This document shows positions 1 through 10,064 of a stretch of 10,064 nt of DNA, one piece after another. The notes under the pieces are model-generated. The model worked only from the letters and a program-made list of their open reading frames with translations, had not been told where the DNA came from and ran no database searches. Position 1 is the stretch's first letter. Each line of letters starts with the position of its first letter. The position numbers and the translations under genes were made by a program. The stretch is from Candidatus Thorarchaeota archaeon (lineage in GTDB: Archaea > Asgardarchaeota > Thorarchaeia > Thorarchaeales > Thorarchaeaceae): NCBI GenBank assembly GCA_016840245.1, contig JAEOST010000237.1, positions 1 to 10,064 on the forward strand, given 5' to 3'.

Positions 1-3000
1 ATTGGTGATGTACCGTACACATGAACTTCTAAACCATCCAATAACATATCAGAGTCCGAATCTGGGTTGAGTGGGTCTGATCCCGCTGCTATTTCTTCAC
101 CATCCTCAAGGTTATCATCGTCGCTATCCCGGTCATTGGCCATAGTGCCGTAGACCCTCAGCTCTTCCAGATTACCCAGACCATCACCATCAGAGTCCCA
201 GTCATCATCAGAGATGTTACCATGGGTCGTGTTGGTTGTGGGATCGGTGTCTGTGATCTCCACTTCCTCCCAGTCAGTAAGACCGTCCGTATCAGTGTGA
301 TTGGTCAGTGGATCTGACTCGTAGTCGTTTATCTCGCGGCCATCATCAAGTCCGTCCATGTCAGTATCGCTCATGAGAGGGTTCGTGTTGTACTCTACAA
401 CCTCATCATAGTCGTTTACGTCATCGTCGTCAGTGTCTCGCTTCAGTGGGTCTGTGATGTACGGATTGATCTCAGTTTCGTGAACCTCTTCATCGTTTGT
501 CAGTCCATCGCCATCCTCGTCGTCATTGAGGTCAGTGGTCCCGTCATCATCAGAGTCCTTGTCCCTTGGGTCGGTTTTCGTGAGCACACACTCCTCCCAG
601 TTGGTCAGGAGGTCTCTGTCCTCGTCGTCTGCACCGTCTAGTGTACCATCACCATCACTATCATCCACTAGGGGATCTGTGAGTGTGAGCAGTATCTCAT
701 GCTCGTTGGTCAATGTGTCATTGTCTATGTCCCAGTCAGCGTCTGATATACCATTACCCTGTGTGCTGTAGAGCCGTGGATTGGCCACGGACATGGTGAT
801 GTTGACCTCATGGTAGTCAGTCAGCCCATCTCCGTCACTGTCCTCCTCCAGAGGAAGTGTACCCAAATCTATCTCCTGTCCATCAAGAAGGCCGTCTTCA
901 TCCGAGTCTTCCTTCAGTGGATTAGTTTTGTAGAAATCTATCTCTTCTCCATCGTCAAGCCCGTCATCATCAGAATCTGAATCCAGTGCATCTGTTTCAT
1001 AGACCTTGATCTCGTCATAGTCAGTGATATCATCGTCGTCCGTGTCTGTATTGTTCAACGCGGTATGCCACGTAAAGGCCTCTTCGCCGTCGTCTAGGCC
1101 ATCTCCGTCTGAGTCTCGCTCATTGGGGTCTCCGAAGTAGTAGAATATCTCATCCCAATCACTGATAGTGTCCTCATCTGTATCAATCTCATTAGGATCA
1201 GTATCGTAGACCAGAATCTCAAGTCCGTCCGAGAGCATGTCCCCGTCTGTATCAACAAGAGTACAGTTGGTCTGATAGCGATAGATCTCGTTGAAGTTGT
1301 CTATTCCGTCTCCATCCTCGTCATCAAGATTGTCTGGTATGCCATCTCCATCAGTGTCCCAGAGAGTCGGGTCTGTGTGACTGTTACCCAGCTCATCATT
1401 GTCAGCAAGCTGGTCATCATCAGTGTCCTCGTCGATTGGTGAGGTCTCGTAGATGTTCACCTCATCACCATCACTGAGGTTGTCGAAGTCGCTATCAGGA
1501 TTCTCAGGGTCTGTACCCTCTTCGTACTCCTCCTTGTCATTCAAACCATCATTGTCGGTATCAGCTAACGTGGCATTTGTTCCGAAGATATAGACCTCGA
1601 AGTAGTCATCAAGCCCATCTGCATCTGTATCATTGAGAAGTGGATCTGTCCCAATATCTAATTCCTCTCTGTCATCAATCATGTCAGAATCGGTATCTGC
1701 CTTTGTGGGGTCTGTGTTGTGTGTGTTGACTTCATCACCATCACTCAAGAGGTCACCGTCTGTGTCCCAATTTGTTGGTGATGTCAGGGATGTGTAGACC
1801 TCGTAGTAGTCAGATAAATCGTCATGGTCACTATCCGTGCCTGTTGGGTCTGTATGGTAGACCCAGTACTCATCGTAGTCGTCTATACCATCGTTGTCTG
1901 TGTCCATGTCAGTGGGGCTGGAACCGCATGTGTAGACCTCTAAACCATCTAATAATCCATCAGAGTCAGTATCATTGACCATGGGGTCTGAACCGTAACC
2001 GTATATCTCCAGACCATTTGAGAGACCGTCTATGTCACCATCCAAGTTGTAGTCTGAGGTGCCATTCATGAAGGTACTGTATCTGCTTGCATTCAGGTTG
2101 AGCTCGTTTATCTCCACATCATCGTAGAGACCGTCCCTGTCAGTGTCTCTACGAGTTGGGTCTGTACCCTCCTCCCACTCCTCAAAGTCGGTCAGTCCAT
2201 CTCCGTCAGAGTCAATCTCCAATGGGTCAGGGTAGACCATGGCGCTGTCCAGTCCAGATGCGTCTATCCAAGTGACTGTGAATCCAAAGACCTCGAAACC
2301 ATCGCTGAGGCCATCGTTATCAGTGTCCATGTCACCGGGTGAGGGTTCGTAGATATCATTCTCCTCACCGTTCTCAAGACCATCGCCATCGGAGTCGAAG
2401 TTGTCGTCATTTGTACCAGGATTGGTTTCGGGATTGTTGGGGTCAGTTTCAGTAATCTCAACCTCTGTGTAATCGTCCAGATTGTCTCCATCACTATCTT
2501 TCACAAGTGGATTGGTCCCATACTCATTGACCTCATCTCCGTCGCTGAGTCCATCCTCATCGGTGTCCAATTCTAGAGGGTCAGTTCCATAGGTGATTAC
2601 CTCTTCACCATCTTCAAGTCCATCATCGTCTGAATCCTTATCGTTCGGATCCGTTTCACCAATGTCGATTACTCCGTCAGCATCCAGGTCCTCACCAAAC
2701 TCTGATGGGTCCCATACACCATTGGCTATTACATCATGCCAACCATCGTAGAGTCCATCCCCGTCAGAGTCTACATTGGTTGCATTCAGACCCATCTGGA
2801 CCTCCAGACCATCGCGAATCATGTCATCATCCGAGTCCCAATCCATGGGATCTGAATTATAGATGCGTATCTCATCACTGTTTGAGAGACCGTCGTTGTC
2901 CTGATCGTCATCACCATCCAAGATACCGTCATCATCGGAATCGTCGTCATTTGGGTCAGTCCCGATGTCATTTACCTCTTCACCGTCATTTAGACCATCT

Positions 3001-4736
3001 GAGTCGGTGTCTGCGTTGAGAGGGTCAGTGTAGACCCATTCTTCAGTATCCTCGTCCCAGTTAATCTCCTCATCGTTGGTCAGGCCGTCATTATCAGGGT
3101 CCTCTTCCCCATCGAGTGTACCATCATCGTTTGAATCATTATAGAGTGGGTCTGTTCCAGTCATGTCCACCTCGAACCAGTTGGGAAGACCGTCGTTGTC
3201 ACTGTCATAGTCATCATCACGTATTGATGCATGTTGGCTGTACGCATTGGTGGGGTCGGTTTCTGTGACGTAGAGTTCTATACCATTGGAAAGGTTGTCG
3301 CCGTCTTGGTCCTCGTCGTAGTCACTTATGTCATCATCATCCGAATCCTCGTCATTTGGATTCGTTCCTAGAATGAGCCACTCATCCCCGTCCTTCACAT
3401 TGTCATCGTCAGAGTCGGGGTCTCGCGGTAGCGTGAGAGAAGTTCGAAGTTCAAAGAAGTTCGAGAGGCCGTCAAGGTCCGAGTCCTCATCATTGTCGTT
3501 GATGAGGTCGCCATCAGAGTCATCATCAAGTGGATCAGTACGGGTGAGGTAAATCTCCTCTCCATTGGTGAGAAAGTCACCGTCCCAGTCATAGTCGTAG
3601 TCATTGGTTGTGTTGGTTGGGTCAAATGTGTAGGGATTAGTTGGGTCGAAGGTTGGCAGAAGGTCTATTTCGTCATTGTCGAAGATACCATCTTCGTCTG
3701 TATCTGTAGAATTGGCATTTGTACCGTAGGTTAGGACCTCAAGTCCATCATCTATGCCATCTTCGTCAGTATCAGTCAGAGTGGCATTCGTTCCATAGGT
3801 GAACCACTCTTCGTAGTCGTTGAGCCCATCTAGGTCTGTATCAGCCGAGTTTGGATCAGTGTCCCAGATGTCCACTTCGTCGCCATCACTAATGAGGTCT
3901 GAGTCTGTGTCCCAGTTCGTGGCATTGGTGCTGTAGGTGTTGATCTCCTCAAAGTCATCAAGACCATCGTGGTCGGTGTCCTTGGCAGTCACATTTGTAC
4001 CGTAAGTCACATACTCCTCATAGTCATCAAGACCATCCTCATCTGAGTCTGCCTCCCGAGGATTGGAACCTACGATCATAACCTCCTCGTAGTCTAGGAG
4101 GTTGTCGTTGTCAGTGTCATCGTCAGTGGGTGAGGTCTTCCAAATCTTGACCTCTTCCCCGTCAAGTAGGAAATCATCATCGCTATCAGGGTCGTGGACA
4201 TCACTACCGACCTCAATCTCTTTCCAGTTGGCTAAGTCATCGCTGTCCTCATCGTCGTAATAGTCAGAGATACCGTCATTGTCTGAGTCAACGTCATTGG
4301 GGTCAGTGTCGGTTGTGCGGACCTCCTCAAGGTTGGTGAGTCCGTCGCCATCGTTGTCGTCCTGAGCATCATTGATGTCGTTGTCGTTGGTGTCTACCTC
4401 AAGTGGGTCTGTGAGGGTTATGTTATTCTCTTCGTAGTCTGTGAGCTGGTCAAAGTCAGAGTCTGCGAAATTGGGGTTGGTGCCGATATAGATCTCTTGG
4501 TAATCTGTCAGCTCGTCATCATCTGAATCCTCATCATTGGGATCCGTGTCGTGAGTGATGACCTCAGCAAAGTCAGAGAGCTTGTCTGAGTCTGAATCTG
4601 GCGATAGTGGGTCGGTATTATACTCGAGCACTTCCTGTCCATCATCGAGATTATCATTGTCAGAATCAGCGTCATTGGGATAGGTACCTTCAATGAGGGT
4701 TTCTCGTGCGTCTGCAAGTGCGTCACCATCCTGATC
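1..4736 (-). repeat. Array of about 59 TSP3-like Asp-rich protein repeats (about 69-nt coding period)
   Basis: From residue 396 (DQDGDALAD) to the window edge the coding sequence is built almost wholly of tandem units. The common unit is D-(S/T)-D-x-D-(G/N)-(L/I)-x-D-(G/Y)-x-E-(V/I)-x-x-Y-x-T-(D/N)-(P/A)-x-x-x, 22-24 residues long. About a dozen places carry a compact extra loop, as in DDEDGDGLTNDEEV. Alternating aspartates at positions 1, 3 and 5 with an acidic residue near 12 are the calcium ligands of TSP3 and EF-hand-like loops. The units differ strongly in nucleotide sequence, so this is an old array kept by protein-level selection rather than a recent DNA satellite. The array continues past position 1, so the full count is unknown. 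Confidence 0.93.
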
Positions 4737-5921
4737 GTAACCGTAAGTTATGACCTGACCTAAGTTATTACCCACTATGAACTCGTCATTTCCGTTATCA
4801 TCGCGGTCGCCAGTGGCAAGGTCCCCGGAGTATTGGGGAACGTTGATCTCAGTGACAAGGTAGCCTGTGGCATTGAACACACTTACTGTATTGGTGCTCC
4901 CTGCAATCACCTGCAGGTCTAAGAGACCTCCAATATTGGCTACTGTGAGTCCGTTCACTGCAGCATTCAGGGTCCTGTTACGGAGGGAGTGCCCGGTACT
5001 GTTGAACCAACGCAGGTCTCCAGCATCTGTACCAACAACGAGTTCATGCAGAGCACCAGTGATGATATCATCAGCCAAGAGCCCAGTGATTGCACTCTCC
5101 AGTGTGATATTGAATCCTGATGTACCATCAAACTCGAATACATAGACATCACCGTTTTCGTTACCAAAGAGAATGGATGGGTTACCTCCAGGTATGACAT
5201 AATTTGAGGTCACTGCCAATACAGGATATGATGTTGACATGGAGAATGAAACGCTACTTGATAGTCCATCGAAGAGTGTGAACTCGCCTCCAACTGAGCC
5301 AATCAGGACATCAGCACGTGCATCGAGATTGACATCATTTGCCAGGATACTGCGTACTGCACCATCGGCGGTATAGTTCCAGAGTTGAACACCTGCATGG
5401 GTGTAGGCATATGCTAGACCATCTTCGCAACCTACTATAATTTCTGGATCAGTGTCCCCTGTGAGCTCACCAGTGGTTACAGTTCTAACATCATCAGGTA
5501 GCGACACATTGGTCAACACAGTCTGGTCTGCTGAGATGGCCAAGAGACCATCAACTGTTCCGATATGGAATCCCTCATCAGCGGGACTATCGAACACTTC
5601 CAGGTCGAATGGTGTTGCTCCAATATCCATACTCCAGATGAGTGCGGTATTGTGGTCGAAGAGGAACAGTGTACCATTCTCAGTTATCACAGCTACTTCG
5701 ATCTCATTGTCCCCATCCGCATTGAGGGTCACAATATCCACAATCTGGTTGCCAGTGGTGTTGGTCCATGCCTCAGCAATATCGAAGGCAGCAATCTCGG
5801 CAATGGCATTACCTGAATCATACAGGTTGACCTGCCCATAGTCCGGTGTGGTCACAATACTCTGCATACTAGCAAGAGCAAATGCAATGAACACAATCAA
5901 CAGTATATGGCGTGATTTCAT
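1..5921 (-). CDS. Giant secreted protein: signal peptide, beta-propeller and about 59 TSP3-like calcium-binding repeats (partial, 3' end outside window)
   Basis: This frame opens with ATG at 5921-5919 and stays open to the window edge, giving at least 1973 codons without a stop. I translated it through and spot-checked the frame at several places (around 5820, 4500, 3000, 1450, 575 and position 3). The N-terminus is a typical Sec signal peptide: MKSRH, then a hydrophobic stretch to about residue 17, with likely cleavage near ALA-S or MQS. Residues about 30-390 form eight propeller-like blades. From residue 396 onward the protein consists of units of the form DxDxDGLxDGxEVxxYGTDPxxx, mostly 22-24 residues, which match thrombospondin type 3 / bacterial TSP3 repeats that bind calcium. 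The protein is extremely acidic, has only a handful of cysteines and carries many N-x-S/T sequons. The likely role is an extended calcium-stiffened cell-surface fibre or adhesin with an N-terminal globular head. Its anchor, if any, lies beyond position 1. No specific ligand can be named. The start is supported by the signal peptide and an upstream GGAGG. Confidence 0.93.
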   Translation of the reverse strand, partial: MKSRHILLIVFIAFALASMQSIVTTPDYGQVNLYDSGNAIAEIAAFDIAEAWTNTTGNQIVDIVTLNADGDNEIEVAVITENGTLFLFDHNTALIWSMDIGATPFDLEVFDSPADEGFHIGTVDGLLAISADQTVLTNVSLPDDVRTVTTGELTGDTDPEIIVGCEDGLAYAYTHAGVQLWNYTADGAVRSILANDVNLDARADVLIGSVGGEFTLFDGLSSSVSFSMSTSYPVLAVTSNYVIPGGNPSILFGNENGDVYVFEFDGTSGFNITLESAITGLLADDIITGALHELVVGTDAGDLRWFNSTGHSLRNRTLNAAVNGLTVANIGGLLDLQVIAGSTNTVSVFNATGYLVTEINVPQYSGDLATGDRDDNGNDEFIVGNNLGQVITYGYDQDGDALADARETLIEGTYPNDADSDNDNLDDGQEVLEYNTDPLSPDSDSDKLSDFAEVITHDTDPNDEDSDDDELTDYQEIYIGTNPNFADSDFDQLTDYEENNITLTDPLEVDTNDNDINDAQDDNDGDGLTNLEEVRTTDTDPNDVDSDNDGISDYYDDEDSDDLANWKEIEVGSDVHDPDSDDDFLLDGEEVKIWKTSPTDDDTDNDNLLDYEEVMIVGSNPREADSDEDGLDDYEEYVTYGTNVTAKDTDHDGLDDFEEINTYSTNATNWDTDSDLISDGDEVDIWDTDPNSADTDLDGLNDYEEWFTYGTNATLTDTDEDGIDDGLEVLTYGTNANSTDTDEDGIFDNDEIDLLPTFDPTNPYTFDPTNTTNDYDYDWDGDFLTNGEEIYLTRTDPLDDDSDGDLINDNDEDSDLDGLSNFFELRTSLTLPRDPDSDDDNVKDGDEWLILGTNPNDEDSDDDDISDYDEDQDGDNLSNGIELYVTETDPTNAYSQHASIRDDDYDSDNDGLPNWFEVDMTGTDPLYNDSNDDGTLDGEEDPDNDGLTNDEEINWDEDTEEWVYTDPLNADTDSDGLNDGEEVNDIGTDPNDDDSDDDGILDGDDDQDNDGLSNSDEIRIYNSDPMDWDSDDDMIRDGLEVQMGLNATNVDSDGDGLYDGWHDVIANGVWDPSEFGEDLDADGVIDIGETDPNDKDSDDDGLEDGEEVITYGTDPLELDTDEDGLSDGDEVNEYGTNPLVKDSDGDNLDDYTEVEITETDPNNPETNPGTNDDNFDSDGDGLENGEENDIYEPSPGDMDTDNDGLSDGFEVFGFTVTWIDASGLDSAMVYPDPLEIDSDGDGLTDFEEWEEGTDPTRRDTDRDGLYDDVEINELNLNASRYSTFMNGTSDYNLDGDIDGLSNGLEIYGYGSDPMVNDTDSDGLLDGLEVYTCGSSPTDMDTDNDGIDDYDEYWVYHTDPTGTDSDHDDLSDYYEVYTSLTSPTNWDTDGDLLSDGDEVNTHNTDPTKADTDSDMIDDREELDIGTDPLLNDTDADGLDDYFEVYIFGTNATLADTDNDGLNDKEEYEEGTDPENPDSDFDNLSDGDEVNIYETSPIDEDTDDDQLADNDELGNSHTDPTLWDTDGDGIPDNLDDEDGDGIDNFNEIYRYQTNCTLVDTDGDMLSDGLEILVYDTDPNEIDTDEDTISDWDEIFYYFGDPNERDSDGDGLDDGEEAFTWHTALNNTDTDDDDITDYDEIKVYETDALDSDSDDDGLDDGEEIDFYKTNPLKEDSDEDGLLDGQEIDLGTLPLEEDSDGDGLTDYHEVNITMSVANPRLYSTQGNGISDADWDIDNDTLTNEHEILLTLTDPLVDDSDGDGTLDGADDEDRDLLTNWEECVLTKTDPRDKDSDDDGTTDLNDDEDGDGLTNDEEVHETEINPYITDPLKRDTDDDDVNDYDEVVEYNTNPLMSDTDMDGLDDGREINDYESDPLTNHTDTDGLTDWEEVEITDTDPTTNTTHGNISDDDWDSDGDGLGNLEELRVYGTMANDRDSDDDNLEDGEEIAAGSDPLNPDSDSDMLLDGLEVHVYGTSP
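4752..5834 (-). other. N-terminal beta-propeller domain (about eight VCBS/FG-GAP or PQQ-like blades)
   Basis: Residues about 30-390 of the giant protein repeat with a period of 40-46 residues. Each blade has a pattern such as D-x-N-x-D-x-x-x-E-(I/V)-x-(V/I)-G-x-x-x-G-x-(L/V)-x-x-(F/Y). Visible examples are LNADGDNEIEVAV, LTGDTDPEIIVG, VNLDARADVLIGS, ILFGNENGDVYVF, HELVVGTDAGDLRWF, LDLQVIAGS and RDDNGNDEFIVG. Two blades end with LIWSMDI and VQLWNYTA, which resemble the W-containing strand of PQQ-type repeats. I count eight blades. VCBS/FG-GAP propellers usually bind ligands or proteins, and their D-x-D-x-D loops can bind calcium. The blade count is by eye, and seven or eight would both be reasonable. 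Confidence 0.75.
5859..5921 (-). other. Signal peptide of the giant repeat protein
   Basis: Residues 1 to about 21 read MKSRHILLIVFIAFALASMQ and S. They show a short basic N-region (K2, R4, H5), a hydrophobic core of about 12 residues and small residues (A15, A17, S18, S21) suited to signal peptidase I. Cleavage after A17 or S21 is equally plausible. No lipobox cysteine is present, so a lipoprotein is unlikely. This places the rest of the protein outside the cell and indicates Sec-type export. Confidence 0.85.
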
Positions 5922-5928
5922 TCTTTTT

Positions 5929-6945
5929 TTAGCCTCCTTCTAATGCCGCTTTGGTCTCTTTCAATTCGGTCGCAATTTCTTTGAATTGTTTTTGCTTCCA
6001 AGGCTTCACTTGGAAATAGTCGAAGAAGTCTGCCTCTACTAAGCTGACCTCCTCAAAGGGAATCTTCCGTTCATTCAGTTCTCGGATGACACGTACCATA
6101 TTGTCAGCAGGGTCGTCTATGAAGAGCTTCATTGTGTTTCGACCTGCTTTGGCCATGTACGTCACTCCCTCTATTGCTCCAACATTGTCAAGTAGTGGAG
6201 CAGAGAGGTTGGGTAGGATTACTTGGATTGCCTCACCCTTTCCTGGTAGGGTTGATATGAGGTCTACCGGAGCACCAAACTGACTCACTAACCCATCCTC
6301 TAGTAGACATACGCGTGTACAATAGTCAACAATCTCAAGGTCATGGCTGATGATTACCATAGAGGTTCCAAGCTCATAGTTGAGCTCTTTCAAATAGTTC
6401 AGGGTCTCGTGTCTAAGGTGCGCATCAAGACCCGTTGTTGGCTCGTCAAGTAGTAACATAACCGGATCATGTATCATTCCTAGACATATCGAAACACGTT
6501 TTCTCTCTCCACCTGATAGTCTAGAGATCCGTTTGGTCTTGAGGTCTTCATCAAACCCTAGGATTGTCAGAATACTTCGAGCACGTTCTTCAATGATCTT
6601 GGGTCGCAGACCAAACATACGACCAAAGAACTGAGCATTCTGCAGAGCAGAGAAATCATAGTAAAGACTCAGATGTTCCAGTTGCGGTACATAGCCTACT
6701 AGTAGACTAATGAGGTCGCCCCTCTTAGTGACATCATGACCTCCAACAAATGCCTGTCCCTCTGTTGGTTTGATTTGTCCGGTGAGTACTCGGAGAACCG
6801 TGGTCTTACCTGCACCTGATGCTCCAATGATACCAAGAAACTCCCTCTTGCTGGCGTAGAATGACACTCCCTTGAGCGCATAGAAGCTACCAAAGGCCAC
6901 CTTGAGGTCGATGATGTCGATCTCTCGTTCGAGTCTGGGGCTCAT
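5929..6945 (-). CDS. ABC transporter ATP-binding protein (complete, 338 aa)
   Basis: This is a cytosolic nucleotide-binding subunit that would hydrolyse ATP to drive a membrane permease. All core motifs are present: Walker A GASGAGKTT at residues 41-49, Q-loop VPQ with Q88, signature LSGGERKRV at 143-151, Walker B VMLLLDE at 162-168, D-loop GLDA at 172-175 and H-loop H201 in ISHD. The SGGERKRVSI signature followed by LLLDEPTTGLD resembles ABC-2/ABCG-type exporters. The remaining 110 or so residues contain a beta-alpha domain ending near ADFFDYFQ, similar in placement to the C-terminal domain of ABC-2 ATPases (DrrA/CcmA-like), and then a charged, probably helical tail. The ATG is one base after the protease stop and has GGAGGGG six bases upstream, so the start is secure. 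No permease gene is visible. The substrate is unknown; export of surface components or protein handling would fit the neighbours. Confidence 0.95.
   Translation of the reverse strand: MSPRLEREIDIIDLKVAFGSFYALKGVSFYASKREFLGIIGASGAGKTTVLRVLTGQIKPTEGQAFVGGHDVTKRGDLISLLVGYVPQLEHLSLYYDFSALQNAQFFGRMFGLRPKIIEERARSILTILGFDEDLKTKRISRLSGGERKRVSICLGMIHDPVMLLLDEPTTGLDAHLRHETLNYLKELNYELGTSMVIISHDLEIVDYCTRVCLLEDGLVSQFGAPVDLISTLPGKGEAIQVILPNLSAPLLDNVGAIEGVTYMAKAGRNTMKLFIDDPADNMVRVIRELNERKIPFEEVSLVEADFFDYFQVKPWKQKQFKEIATELKETKAALEGG
5933..5937 (-). promoter_or_regulatory. Shine-Dalgarno site of the giant protein gene, inside the ATPase 3' end
   Basis: The minus strand reads GGAGG, then CTAAAAAAAGA, then ATG. 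The GGAGG encodes part of the last two glycines of the ATPase gene, and the ATPase stop TAA lies between it and the new start. The 11-base spacing is slightly long, and the A-rich spacer should be unstructured. This supports the ATG at 5921 and suggests translational coupling between the two genes. Confidence 0.7.
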
Positions 6946-6946
6946 C

Positions 6947-9900
6947 TCACACCCCTCCTATCTTTCCGCTAACCTTGCGGAACTTACTCTTTGCCATATC
7001 GAGAGTCGTCATCATGGCCCTGAGCGCTTCAACCTTCTGAACTCTATCAATATCCTCCCGAGCAATCAATTCCTCTATCTGAGTAAAGATAGCAACGAGC
7101 GTGTTTAGCGTATTGTCAATTTCGAACATTAGTTGTGTGTCAATCTCAGGAATACGCATCCTCTTACTACGTCTTCTCTTGTTCCATACCACACCAACAA
7201 CAAGTGCTCCAAATATACCAATACTTGAGAGGAATGCAATTTGGAACATTGTAAGGAATGGTTGTGGTCCATTTGTTGGAGGTGGGATTACCACGTCGTA
7301 GAGATAGAAACTCACACTGGCATAGGTGTTCGCATACTCCTGTGAGAAGATAATGAAGATGCCATTTACACGTCCAGCACTCTTGTAGTAAGATGGAATG
7401 AACTGTGATGAGTATAGACCGTTCTCAACAAATCCTGCGATAAAGCCCGCCTGTGAGCCATTTGGAAGCTCAAAGACAATGAATACGGTGAGATCATCAA
7501 CAGGATTGCCATAGTAGTCTGTGACATCAAGGTTAAGGTATACACTTCTTCCAACTGGATATTGAGTTGTGTTTTCAGCAAGTGATGCTACTCCAGCTAG
7601 AGTATGACTCAACAACCACTGGTTAAGGTTATCAAATAATATTGAGTTGTTGCATTCGAGTAGTTTATCATTCATGAATATCCTCGATGATCCAAACAGA
7701 ACCAGCTCGGGTTCCGAGTCATCAAGTAGTACCACAGGATTTCCATTTAGGGTCACAGCTGCCAATGAGTGGTTGTTGACAATATACGTCCCTCCACCAA
7801 GCCAAACGCTCTCGAGACCGTGAGCAAGTAGATTACCCATGACGATCTCAGTGGTATTTTCTTCAGTATGTTTTCCTTCCATTCTATATCCATATTCAGC
7901 AAGAAGCGGATTCAACCCAGTCAGATTGGCTCTATCCTCGTAGTCTCCAAAGATGACTAATCGTCCGCCATCTCTCGTGTAATTGGTCAATGTACTGATC
8001 TCGGTACTGTTGAATTCCTTTGTAGGACTCATAATGAATACCATTGAGAACTGTATAAGCAGGTTCTCATCTAATGCCATGCCGATACCTTCCACTAGAT
8101 CCAGTCCTTGCTCGCCCATTATCCGTTTCATCTCAGAGAGACCAGACAGTGTAGTCATTCTAAGCGAGTCGAACAGACTTCCGAGGTCTCCAATATCGAA
8201 TCCCCCAAGGCTAGTAGATGATGAGTCATCTTGAGCTGGTAAGAAACCTCCACTCGAATTACCCGTGTCTATTCCTAGGTCCAGACCACCCCCTAGACCA
8301 CCGCCAAAATCTCCGAGGCCACCTAATCCCCCGCCATGCGATGTGTCTAAGAACATCATGGCTCGCGGATACCTGATGGTCTTTTCGAGTGTGATATTTG
8401 TTGACCATCCCTGTTCCGTATGAATCACATAGTCACACCGGTGATAACCATCTATGCCAATAGGTGGAACCATAAGAAAGAGTGAGAAGTTATAGAATCC
8501 CTCTACATTGTCGCTCTGCGTGAGCGTCATATTACCCCAGTCAGTGACGTTTCCATGCTTCGAGATGGTGAGGTTTCCAAGAGGTACTGTAGTCGATAGT
8601 GAGAAAGTAAAAATCCCAAAATCAGCTGGAAAGTCCATGAAGAATGGGGCTGCAGGGAGAATTTTTGGAAAGACCGACGTTGACTCGATAGGTGTTATGA
8701 CAAAGACATCTCTCAACAGGAAGTCGTCAAGTATCCGATAGATTGTAGTCATGATATCTGAAGTGAGTTGCAATAACAGCCCCAATATGTCGCCAAGGGC
8801 ATAAGTGCAGATCCAGATTGCAGTGTGGATACCTTCCTCCTCTGGACGCCATTCCGCTACCAAGATCTTTGCTTCAAATGGGTCTAGTTCCTCCACTTGG
8901 AAGAGGTTGAGAAACATCTTGTCCTGGTCCTCAAGACTCTTGCTGACCAACAATCCAGCAGTGACATTTGAAGGCGTTTCACCAATATTCATGATGACTG
9001 CTCGAGATTGATAGGTTTCCCCTTGAAGTGCATTTCTCGGGATATCCGCTTCAACCACAATCAAGTCACCCTGGGCCACATAGGACTCACCTGGTTCTAG
9101 AATCCACATAGCTTCGATAGACTTGTCCAACACTGTTCGATTCTCACCAAAACCCATGGCAATGGTAACATTGACCAGTTCATAGGAATCAACAACGTCA
9201 AAGTCCCACTTCATACCAATGCCTACGTCACCATCATAGGTTGTAGATTCAGTGAGGTTGTCATCTGAGATATGGGACGATATAGTGGATGAATTTCCAA
9301 CTTCGAATGCATCAAGAGGGATACTAGAGTTTAGTCCAATATAGAATCTGTCATAGTTCTCGGCCTGTCCATATGCGAACAGCTGTTGATTCTCTAGGTC
9401 ATACTTTCCATGGTCGTCAATATCATCTAGAAACAGGTCTAGTGAGTATGATAGAAAGAGACTGACATTGGCTATAGGATCTAGTCCTAGGTTTAAGATA
9501 TACGGAGTTATTCTGAATGCAGTTAGGGGCTGTTCTGAGTATTCTGTCAGATTATACGACTCGACACATAACGTAACAAAGACCTCATCCTCGTATGACA
9601 GAATTCCTATGTACCTATTGTAGTAATCTGGAGATGAAGCTGCTGACACCTGATGTAACTCTCGTTTAACATCGAACATCATTAGATTAGTTGGGTCCAT
9701 ATTGTTCCAACGAAGCGATAGCGTGCCCATCAGGAAGTGTATTCCCATATCACTTCCAGGCCGTGTGTCCATCGCTATGAGTGTGGTACCATAACTACTC
9801 ATCATCAAGGTTGTATCAGCATTCATTCCCGTGGCGCTGAGGAACCCGAATGATAATAGAGGAAGCCCTGGTGTACGATTGTGGGTTTCGATAGGATTCT

Positions 9901-10064
9901 GTAGTGTGCTTAGATATCCAAAGGCCCTGCTCAGACTGACCAAGCCAGCTCCTGCATCGTTCACTCCGAAAGGAAGTGGAATTGCTGTATCTCTGAGAGT
10001 GTTTGACAAGACGATTGGAGTTGCTCTATCAAATGCCTGCATCAATATAGCTGCTGCACCTGCG
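6947..10064 (-). CDS. Membrane-anchored subtilisin-like (S8) protease with site-1-protease-like C-terminal region (partial, 5' end outside window)
   Basis: The frame is open to the window edge, with 1038 residues visible. The first complete residues read AGAAAILMQAF. This is the helix that follows the catalytic serine in subtilases (GTSMAAPHVAGAAA...), and FGVNDAGAGLVSLSRAFGYL closes the S8 domain. The nucleophile therefore lies just upstream of position 10064, and the TTG/ATG codons near 10045 are not the real start. In order follow: beta-rich regions, including a CARDB-like segment (about 8800-9030); a Rossmann-like domain (7602-8375) that resembles the post-catalytic part of eukaryotic site-1 protease; an Ig-like domain (about 7290-7580, VTDYYGNPVDDLTVFIVFEL); a proline spacer; one transmembrane helix; and a basic stop-transfer sequence with a 78-residue cytoplasmic tail. 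About 22 N-x-S/T sequons lie in the outer part. The role is probably proteolysis at the cell surface; the substrate is unknown. It is the first visible gene of the operon. Confidence 0.88.
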   Translation of the reverse strand, partial: AGAAAILMQAFDRATPIVLSNTLRDTAIPLPFGVNDAGAGLVSLSRAFGYLSTLQNPIETHNRTPGLPLLSFGFLSATGMNADTTLMMSSYGTTLIAMDTRPGSDMGIHFLMGTLSLRWNNMDPTNLMMFDVKRELHQVSAASSPDYYNRYIGILSYEDEVFVTLCVESYNLTEYSEQPLTAFRITPYILNLGLDPIANVSLFLSYSLDLFLDDIDDHGKYDLENQQLFAYGQAENYDRFYIGLNSSIPLDAFEVGNSSTISSHISDDNLTESTTYDGDVGIGMKWDFDVVDSYELVNVTIAMGFGENRTVLDKSIEAMWILEPGESYVAQGDLIVVEADIPRNALQGETYQSRAVIMNIGETPSNVTAGLLVSKSLEDQDKMFLNLFQVEELDPFEAKILVAEWRPEEEGIHTAIWICTYALGDILGLLLQLTSDIMTTIYRILDDFLLRDVFVITPIESTSVFPKILPAAPFFMDFPADFGIFTFSLSTTVPLGNLTISKHGNVTDWGNMTLTQSDNVEGFYNFSLFLMVPPIGIDGYHRCDYVIHTEQGWSTNITLEKTIRYPRAMMFLDTSHGGGLGGLGDFGGGLGGGLDLGIDTGNSSGGFLPAQDDSSSTSLGGFDIGDLGSLFDSLRMTTLSGLSEMKRIMGEQGLDLVEGIGMALDENLLIQFSMVFIMSPTKEFNSTEISTLTNYTRDGGRLVIFGDYEDRANLTGLNPLLAEYGYRMEGKHTEENTTEIVMGNLLAHGLESVWLGGGTYIVNNHSLAAVTLNGNPVVLLDDSEPELVLFGSSRIFMNDKLLECNNSILFDNLNQWLLSHTLAGVASLAENTTQYPVGRSVYLNLDVTDYYGNPVDDLTVFIVFELPNGSQAGFIAGFVENGLYSSQFIPSYYKSAGRVNGIFIIFSQEYANTYASVSFYLYDVVIPPPTNGPQPFLTMFQIAFLSSIGIFGALVVGVVWNKRRRSKRMRIPEIDTQLMFEIDNTLNTLVAIFTQIEELIAREDIDRVQKVEALRAMMTTLDMAKSKFRKVSGKIGGV
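6950..7183 (-). other. Cytoplasmic tail of the protease (78 aa, basic then amphipathic helical)
   Basis: After the basic cluster NKRRRSKRMR, the tail contains two long amphipathic segments (about MFEIDNTLNTLVAIFTQIEE and VQKVEALRAMMTTLDMAKSK) that look like a helical hairpin or short coiled coil, and it ends in SGKIGGV. Most anchored subtilases have only short tails. A tail of this size could bind a cytosolic partner, and the ATPase encoded next door is the obvious candidate. That partnership is inference. Confidence 0.65.
6952..6958 (-). promoter_or_regulatory. Shine-Dalgarno site of the ATPase gene, inside the protease 3' end
   Basis: The minus strand reads GGAGGGG, then TGTGAG, then ATG. 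The SD lies within the last protease codons (GGV-stop), and the protease TGA is separated from the ATPase ATG by one base. The spacing of six bases is ideal. This fixes the ATPase start at 6945 and indicates coupled translation. Confidence 0.85.
7184..7258 (-). other. Single transmembrane helix of the protease
   Basis: About 25 residues from FLTMFQIAF to GALVVGVVW are uncharged and hydrophobic. They follow the extracellular linker IPPPTNGPQP and are followed at once by NKRRRSKRMR, a strong positive stop-transfer signal. This orients the protease domain outside and the C-terminus inside the cell. Confidence 0.88.
7602..8375 (-). other. Rossmann/GATase-like domain resembling the MBTPS1 (site-1 protease) C-terminal region, within the S8 protease
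   Basis: The segment begins with YPRAMMFLDTSHGG, continues through SLRMTTLSGLSEMKRIMGEQ, VFIMSPTKEFNSTEISTLTN and DGGRLVIFGDYED, and ends near LVLFGSSRIF and FDNLNQWLLSH. From memory, human site-1 protease has RVLWDQYHN, LRSMGYFVEVLG, LLMVDSEEEYFPEEIAKLR, GLSLVIFSDWYN, GRIVLYGDSNCLD and CFWLLDALLQ in the same order. DUF4350/IFT52-type GATase-like domains share this pattern, so the match could be to the wider superfamily rather than to S1P in particular. A glycine-rich insertion (8274-8340) interrupts the domain after its first strand. Confidence 0.55.
8274..8340 (-). other. Glycine-rich low-complexity loop in the protease
   Basis: The segment reads GGGLGGLGDFGGGLGGGLDL, that is, repeated GG(G)L steps with a few aspartates. 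It sits between the first beta strand of the Rossmann-like domain (MMFLDTSH) and its first helix, followed by a Ser/Asp-rich stretch (QDDSSSTSLGGFDIGDLGS). It is probably a flexible or calcium-binding surface loop. Its function cannot be told from sequence. Confidence 0.7.
10003..10064 (-). other. C-terminal end of the S8 catalytic domain (post-serine helix)
   Basis: Translating past the first in-window start codon to the edge gives A-G-A-A-A-I-L-M-Q-A-F-D-R-A-T-P. Subtilases have GTSMA-x-P-H-V-A-G-A-A-A-L at this place, so the active-site serine is predicted seven or eight residues before the first visible alanine. The downstream FGVNDAGAGLVSL matches the G-x-G-x-(V/L)-(D/S)-x-x-x-A motif that ends the family fold. 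The catalytic Asp and His and the serine itself cannot be inspected here. Confidence 0.8.

Follow-up and report, generated by a model that had tools for sequence, protein, structure and literature searches.

An Asgard S8-GIFT protein with the domain order of site-1 protease is probably a catalytically dead partner of an ABC-2 transporter

Organization of the S8-GIFT gene

The window analysed here is a stretch of 10,064 nt from a Candidatus Thorarchaeota archaeon (GenBank assembly GCA_016840245.1, contig JAEOST010000237.1), and our subject is a long open reading frame (ORF) on its minus strand that encodes an S8-GIFT protein, combining part of a subtilase (S8) domain with a GATase-like GIFT domain. 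The original prediction had taken this protein for a protease built like eukaryotic site-1 protease (S1P, MBTPS1 or SKI-1) and perhaps related to the ancestor of S1P. Its features are as follows.

6947..10063, minus strand: S8-GIFT ORF, 1038 amino acids (aa), 5' end cut at the window edge (ORF list, relatives)
9926..10063, minus strand: C-terminal end of the S8 (subtilase) domain, about aa 1-46 (alignment with full-length relatives)
8372..9925, minus strand: beta-rich region from S8 to GIFT, longer than the P-like domain of S1P (model of relative L001)
7580..8371, minus strand: GIFT (GATase-like) domain, from first strand YPRAMMFLDTSHGGG through the LVLFGSSRIF region (Pfam, profile alignments)
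8162..8326, minus strand: Gly/Asp-rich insert behind the first GIFT strand, ends approximate (sequence; low-confidence part of the relative's model)
7934..7972, minus strand: motif DGGRLVIFGDYED, named in the original prediction (profile alignment)
7676..7705, minus strand: motif LVLFGSSRIF, named in the original prediction (profile alignment)
7241..7579, minus strand: conserved region between GIFT and transmembrane (TM) helix, putatively Ig-like (conservation)
7184..7240, minus strand: TM helix IAFLSSIGIFGALVVGVVW, aa 942-960 (hydropathy 2.28)
6950..7183, minus strand: cytoplasmic tail of 78 aa, with stop-transfer NKRRRSKRMR and then a conserved, probably helical segment (conservation)

Full-length relatives of the protein measure about 1450-1475 aa, and the window holds the last two thirds. 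Those with a named source come from metagenome-assembled genomes of Thorarchaeota, Promethearchaeota and Lokiarchaeota, all Asgard archaea, a possibility that the original prediction had raised for the host; among the matches listed, the closest relative is P0001 (79% identity). The S8 fragment starts about seven residues past the position of the catalytic Ser and, because just about 46 S8 residues lie inside the window, the protein's own catalytic residues are known only through relatives. The subtilase family PF00082 went undetected in this short fragment and was above cut-off in all six full-length relatives searched (126-149 bits); in the model of relative L001, a pro-domain-like fold precedes the predicted S8 fold. 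Pfam matches place the GIFT domain at about aa 660-810, and hydropathy also reveals a second, weaker hydrophobic stretch at aa 415-433, inside the beta-rich region.

Pfam, hydropathy and alignment with relatives thus bear out the domain order first proposed and, with it, the architectural parallel with MBTPS1, including a C-terminal TM helix with a short cytoplasmic tail. Two parts of that proposal stand in reduced form: the tail is basic at its start alone, its 73 residues past NKRRR containing 12 K/R and 11 D/E, and the S8 catalytic domain is represented by its end, from a family whose catalytic residues are lost, as detailed next.

Loss of active-site residues

We surveyed the active site in the 117 full-length proteins among 120 relatives listed, dropping three shorter ones. 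The column of the oxyanion Asn contains Asp in all 117, and that of the catalytic Ser contains Thr in 60, Ala in 50 and Ser in 7. The remaining catalytic columns are better kept, with Asp in 112 (Ala in one, gaps in four) and His in 108 (Ser in four, Pro in three, gaps in two). The Ser two residues past the catalytic column is replaced by Ala in 14 of the 117, and also in loci L178, L182 and L184. Human S1P (structures 8UW8, 8UWC and 9CSD), unlike this family, has the complete Asp, His, Asn and Ser set.

A wider alignment of 202 S8 domains, including BPN' and S1P, gave the same picture: the oxyanion position is Asp at 45 of 45 pseudo loci, and their Ser position is mostly Ala, Thr or Gly (Ser in L165, L167, L170 and L194; Leu in L180; Phe in L193). 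Several distant pseudo members show His to Arg and also Ser to Gly changes. All four residues are intact in the S8-GIFT proteins of 14 active loci, and in the S1P rows in which the column is filled. Mean identity is slightly higher in columns near the catalytic motifs (0.87) than elsewhere in S8 (0.82). Judged by residue loss in relatives, the window family is a pseudoprotease, which makes S1P-like cleavage by the window protein unlikely. In eukaryotes, S1P depends on SPRING for its activity and cleaves substrates of the SREBP and ATF6 type.

Linkage to ABC-2 transporter genes

The S8-GIFT gene is followed in the window by two further ORFs.

5929..6945, minus strand: ATP-binding cassette (ABC) transporter ATPase, 338 aa, beginning 1 nt past the S8-GIFT stop codon (ORFs, Pfam)
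3..5921, minus strand: giant beta-propeller and TSP3-repeat protein, 1973 aa, open at the window end, 7 nt past the ATPase gene (ORFs, Pfam)

We compared 22 window-type loci from 22 genomes (L001, L002 and L158-L177). A cognate ATPase of the 566-aa type lies directly upstream in all of them, an ABC-2 permease (Pfam family ABC2_membrane_3) is present in 20, the other two ending at contig edges, and a 335-aa-type ATPase lies downstream in 21, with one contig end. Cognate ABC ATPases also occur at 19 of 23 other pseudo loci (22 genomes), hence at 41 of 45 pseudo-S8 loci overall. At L180, L181 and L190, the ABC genes found all lie on the strand opposite to S8-GIFT. Conversely, cognate ABC genes were found at none of the 14 active S8-GIFT loci, some of which are short contigs.

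This arrangement resembles the Gld system, in which a GIFT domain, an ABC ATPase and an ABC-2 permease share one operon (GldG with GldA and GldF) and GldG fuses GIFT to permease helices. Unlike in GldG, the GIFT domain of the window type resides on a separate, S8-bearing protein with one strong TM helix, at its C-terminus.

Several side observations concern these neighbours. The N-terminal region of the upstream ATPase of L001 (L001:1393-3093, plus strand) matches Regulator_TrmB (PF11495; 35.8 bits, cut-off 22.2) and is a possible ligand sensor. The N-terminal propeller of the giant protein narrowly exceeds the cut-off of the ciliary BBS7 propeller family (28.6 bits, cut-off 27), with BBS2_Mid just under its cut-off, and many TSP3 repeats follow. 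A separate TSP3 gene was called in 13 of the 22 window-type loci; the call ran on in eight, and one locus ends. The ATPase-TSP3 fusion that these eight calls implied was rejected as a masked-base artefact in the seven inspected, the eighth being L164, where the S8-GIFT frame is itself split into two ORFs. GIFT was undetected in the truncated L187. At L140, L150 and L155, an active S8-GIFT gene with a C-terminal zinc ribbon adjoins a weakly similar 230-aa ABC ATPase and, at L155 (5255-11150, minus strand), also an ORF read as a MacB-type permease. A1 matches extending past the S8 domain occurred in at least 65 of 195 Asgard genomes.

The GIFT domain and its relation to IFT52 and S1P

The window GIFT domain gave Pfam matches to IFT52_GIFT (E 8e-6), DUF4350 (E 1e-4) and ABC_transp_aux (E 1e-4), none of which reached the curated cut-off of its family. 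The IFT52_GIFT match (PF23355) fell just short (25.5 bits, cut-off 27.2), and six of six full-length relatives exceeded the threshold (27.5-37.9 bits); the ABC_transp_aux match (PF09822) reached 21.8 bits against a cut-off of 34.7. The S1P families MBTPS1_3rd and MBTPS1_4th were found neither in the window (E<=1) nor in six relatives (E<=10), in searches whose HMMER filters discard most weak matches. Against the PDB, a window-family GIFT profile of 18 sequences matched IFT52 (5fms at E 7e-8, also 5fmr and 8bd7), and S1P was absent from its matches at E<=10. By sequence, therefore, the window GIFT resembles that of IFT52 more than that of S1P, and among eukaryotic GIFTs that of IFT52 is the closest. 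IFT52, an intraflagellar transport protein, differs in having no S8 domain.

Homology with the S1P domain was nevertheless evident. An hhalign comparison of the animal-S1P GIFT with the window-family GIFT (117 sequences) gave probability 91, E 9e-7 and a score of 50.9 over 86 columns; none of 30 column shuffles exceeded 21.2, and the reversed profile scored 12.5. This alignment includes the first motif only. A longer, weaker alignment over the whole domain (probability only 46, E 3.3e-5) placed both motifs in register, VIFSDWYN on VIFGDYED and VLYGDSNC on LVLFGSSKIF, in the order that the original prediction had given. The motif match is thus real, in the sense of generic GIFT homology that is not specific to S1P.

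Other Asgard GIFT groups match S1P better. The S1P GIFT scored 115.5 with active Asgard S8-GIFT proteins, 105.9 with other pseudo members, 68.6 with S8-free Asgard GIFTs and 50.9 with the window family, a ranking that we treat as a hint because similarity to S1P had helped to select the active set and the profiles are unequal in depth. The top score against the S1P GIFT profile, 32.7 bits, belongs to L138, of the wider pseudo branch. No match was obtained by hhalign between the P-like domain of S1P and the beta-rich region of the window, which is much longer.

Subtilase phylogeny and structural models

A tree placing the protein beside S1P would have agreed with the proposed kinship. The window-type and pseudo S8 domains instead form their own clade in two trees (support 100/99 in the second), not adjoining S1P. 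In the second tree the sister of this clade is L195, an intact Asgard subtilase (support 97/94); catalytic loss therefore looks derived. In this second tree, for which 58 of 88 rows were kept (five long-branch rows left out on purpose, others thinned), one group with support 90/82 takes 24 of 26 active and 8 of 8 pseudo S8-GIFT rows, plus two GIFT-less rows. S1P, represented by animal sequences only, sits on a long branch with its placement unresolved, and we no longer take the S8 tree to prove a link with S1P. Constrained trees were compared by the approximately unbiased test (p-AU): a clade of S1P plus pseudo members was not rejected (p-AU 0.36), S1P with L145 and P0124 gave p-AU 0.38, and the tree with P0224 and P0226 constrained beside S1P was 4.2 log-likelihood units higher (p-AU 0.625), a weak hint. 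P0224 and P0226, the latter named Heimdallarchaeota, are active-looking S8-GIFT proteins that lie near S1P without significant support. In phmmer searches of the collected proteins with the S8 domain of S1P, Streptomyces-type subtilases scored best (P0168, 129 bits) and the best Asgard protein reached 115 bits; a search of the same proteins with S1P gave no match to the window protein.

Structural comparison was the test on which S1P came out as first expected. With the model of a window relative, Foldseek returned S1P (9csd_A) as its top PDB match (E 1.9e-24), ahead of a subtilisin-like protease (3afg, E 2.6e-22), and VIA-align ranked S1P fourth. To our knowledge, S1P is the sole solved protein with both S8 and GIFT, so that this result is expected of any S8-GIFT protein.

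Active-looking S8-GIFT proteins in Asgard archaea

Other Asgard S8-GIFT proteins share the two domains and the phylum with the window family and differ from it in having all four catalytic residues and no cognate ABC-2 genes near the 14 loci. They include an 807-aa type, a Thorarchaeota paralogue of about 960 aa and a zinc-ribbon type of about 1250-1310 aa. The first is encoded at L145:7194-9617 (plus strand, genome G028), with an intact triad, a C-terminal TM helix (hydropathy) and a GIFT domain starting RVLWDQSHD, where human S1P has RVLWDQYHN. Among 120 proteins listed for this query, itself Asgard, the 18 source-named ones with GIFT are Asgard without exception, and none of the 19 source-named ones that lack GIFT is. 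Its model (pLDDT 84.3) has S1P as best PDB match in Foldseek, over 712 alignment columns (E 4.9e-45, TM score 0.59/0.64, root-mean-square deviation 6.1); with VIA-align, S1P is missing from the best 50 entries, all of them subtilases.

MBTPS1_4th was above cut-off in 13 of 195 Asgard genomes, in 0 of 198 genomes of the Streptomyces phylum and in 0 of 199 of the Sutcliffiella phylum, where two weak matches fell below it; this comparison is without a positive control, since no control genome matched above cut-off. MBTPS1_3rd was above cut-off in 0 of the 195 Asgard genomes. Among the best 20 MBTPS1_4th loci (195 genomes), S8 and GIFT share one ORF in 17 within the clipped locus and, in wider loci, also in L138 and L193, L110 being undecided. 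The corresponding figures for the best 20 loci were two for PF09822 (59 genomes), or three with L216, counted on an S8 match in its frame, and one for IFT52_GIFT (195 genomes). S8 fusion in 19 of 20 as compared with 3 of 20 loci is significant (Fisher p 4e-7). IFT52_GIFT was above cut-off in 170 of 195 Asgard genomes, in listed frames (L220-L239) of mostly 300-500 aa. On these family matches, the S1P-type GIFT of Asgard archaea tends to accompany S8 and the IFT52-type tends to stand alone, a pattern consistent with the S1P design having arisen in Asgard archaea.

Discussion

The window protein is probably an extracellular, C-terminally membrane-anchored and catalytically dead subunit of an Asgard GldAFG-like ABC-2 transporter. 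It likely belongs to an Asgard S8-GIFT superfamily with the domain order of S1P, in a branch devoid of protease chemistry. The observations beneath this proposal are the domain order, the residue loss in relatives and the gene linkage, and from them we infer complex formation, ligand binding, export and a client. The weak match of the window GIFT to ABC_transp_aux also speaks for it. According to PMC11231238, the GIFT subdomain of S1P lies against loops of S8 and stabilizes the oxyanion Asn338. In all examined relatives of the window protein this Asn is Asp, yet GIFT and S8 stay together, suggesting that the S8-GIFT unit is kept as a binding and coupling device that works with the ABC-2 transporter.

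On the outside of the cell, the subtilase fold, inactive but with a conserved pseudo-active site, would bind a polypeptide and leave it uncut, and the GIFT and beta domains would couple this binding to the ABC-2 permease. The cytoplasmic tail may contact the ATPases, linking substrate binding to ATP-driven export or surface assembly. In Thorarchaeota-like genomes, a plausible client would be the product of the adjacent gene, the giant TSP3 surface protein. That the tail touches the ATPases is a guess, as are the client and the transport direction.

Several points weigh against the transporter-subunit proposal. The catalytic residues of the window protein fall outside the window, which itself contains a single ATPase of the ABC genes; Ser is retained at the catalytic column in 7 of 117 relatives; and no cognate ABC gene occurs in the stretch read at 4 of 45 pseudo loci (L182, L183, L184 and L194). 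Moreover, all pseudo members fall in a single clade, so that the loss of residues and the association with ABC genes do not count as independent events.

An S1P-like membrane protease that releases membrane-bound or secreted substrates through a shifted or unusual nucleophile, either the conserved Thr or the Ser two positions further along, would account for the predicted S8 fold with a pro-domain-like fold before it, the top rank of S1P in Foldseek and the retention of Asp (112 of 117), His (108) and occasionally Ser (7). We consider it quite improbable, because the oxyanion position is Asp throughout, the alternative Ser is replaced by Ala in 14 of 117 relatives and in L178, L182 and L184, and several branches have also lost His. 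The large beta-rich ectodomain, adjoining a giant TSP3 protein, could instead belong to an adhesin or a structural scaffold of the cell surface whose place in the transporter operon serves expression only. Such a role is unlikely, given that the ABC linkage holds where the genes lie on opposite strands (L180, L181 and L190) and in L004, a member at just 23% identity, and that the cytoplasmic tail is conserved.

The proposed kinship with the S1P ancestor survives as GIFT homology, well above the shuffled controls. It is very improbable that the window family stands closest of all to this ancestor: the domain order is shared, S1P leads in Foldseek, an S1P-plus-pseudo clade was not rejected and L138 tops the S1P GIFT profile scores, but no MBTPS1 Pfam match was obtained for the window or six relatives, three other GIFT groups all score higher against S1P than this family does, its GIFT resembles that of IFT52 more closely and its active site is lost. 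The better relatives of S1P are those Asgard S8-GIFT proteins that retain the triad. We tentatively suggest, as a possibility short of even odds, that eukaryotic S1P took its S8-beta-GIFT-TM design from an Asgard membrane protease of which active-looking versions persist, the window family being a dead branch that now serves as an ABC transporter ectodomain. Against an Asgard origin, the S8 tree leaves S1P unresolved on its long branch, and among the collected proteins it is Streptomyces-type enzymes that give the S8 domain of S1P its best scores. Among the titles and abstracts listed in literature searches, none concerned an Asgard protein resembling S1P.

With the S1P design present in many Asgard genomes, the question of its origin is open to experiment, as the active-looking S8-GIFT proteases could be assayed. 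We know of no earlier pseudo-subtilase partner of an ABC-2 transporter, and one that stays with its transporter across Asgard groups, as the window family appears to do, would be a new kind of transporter partner.

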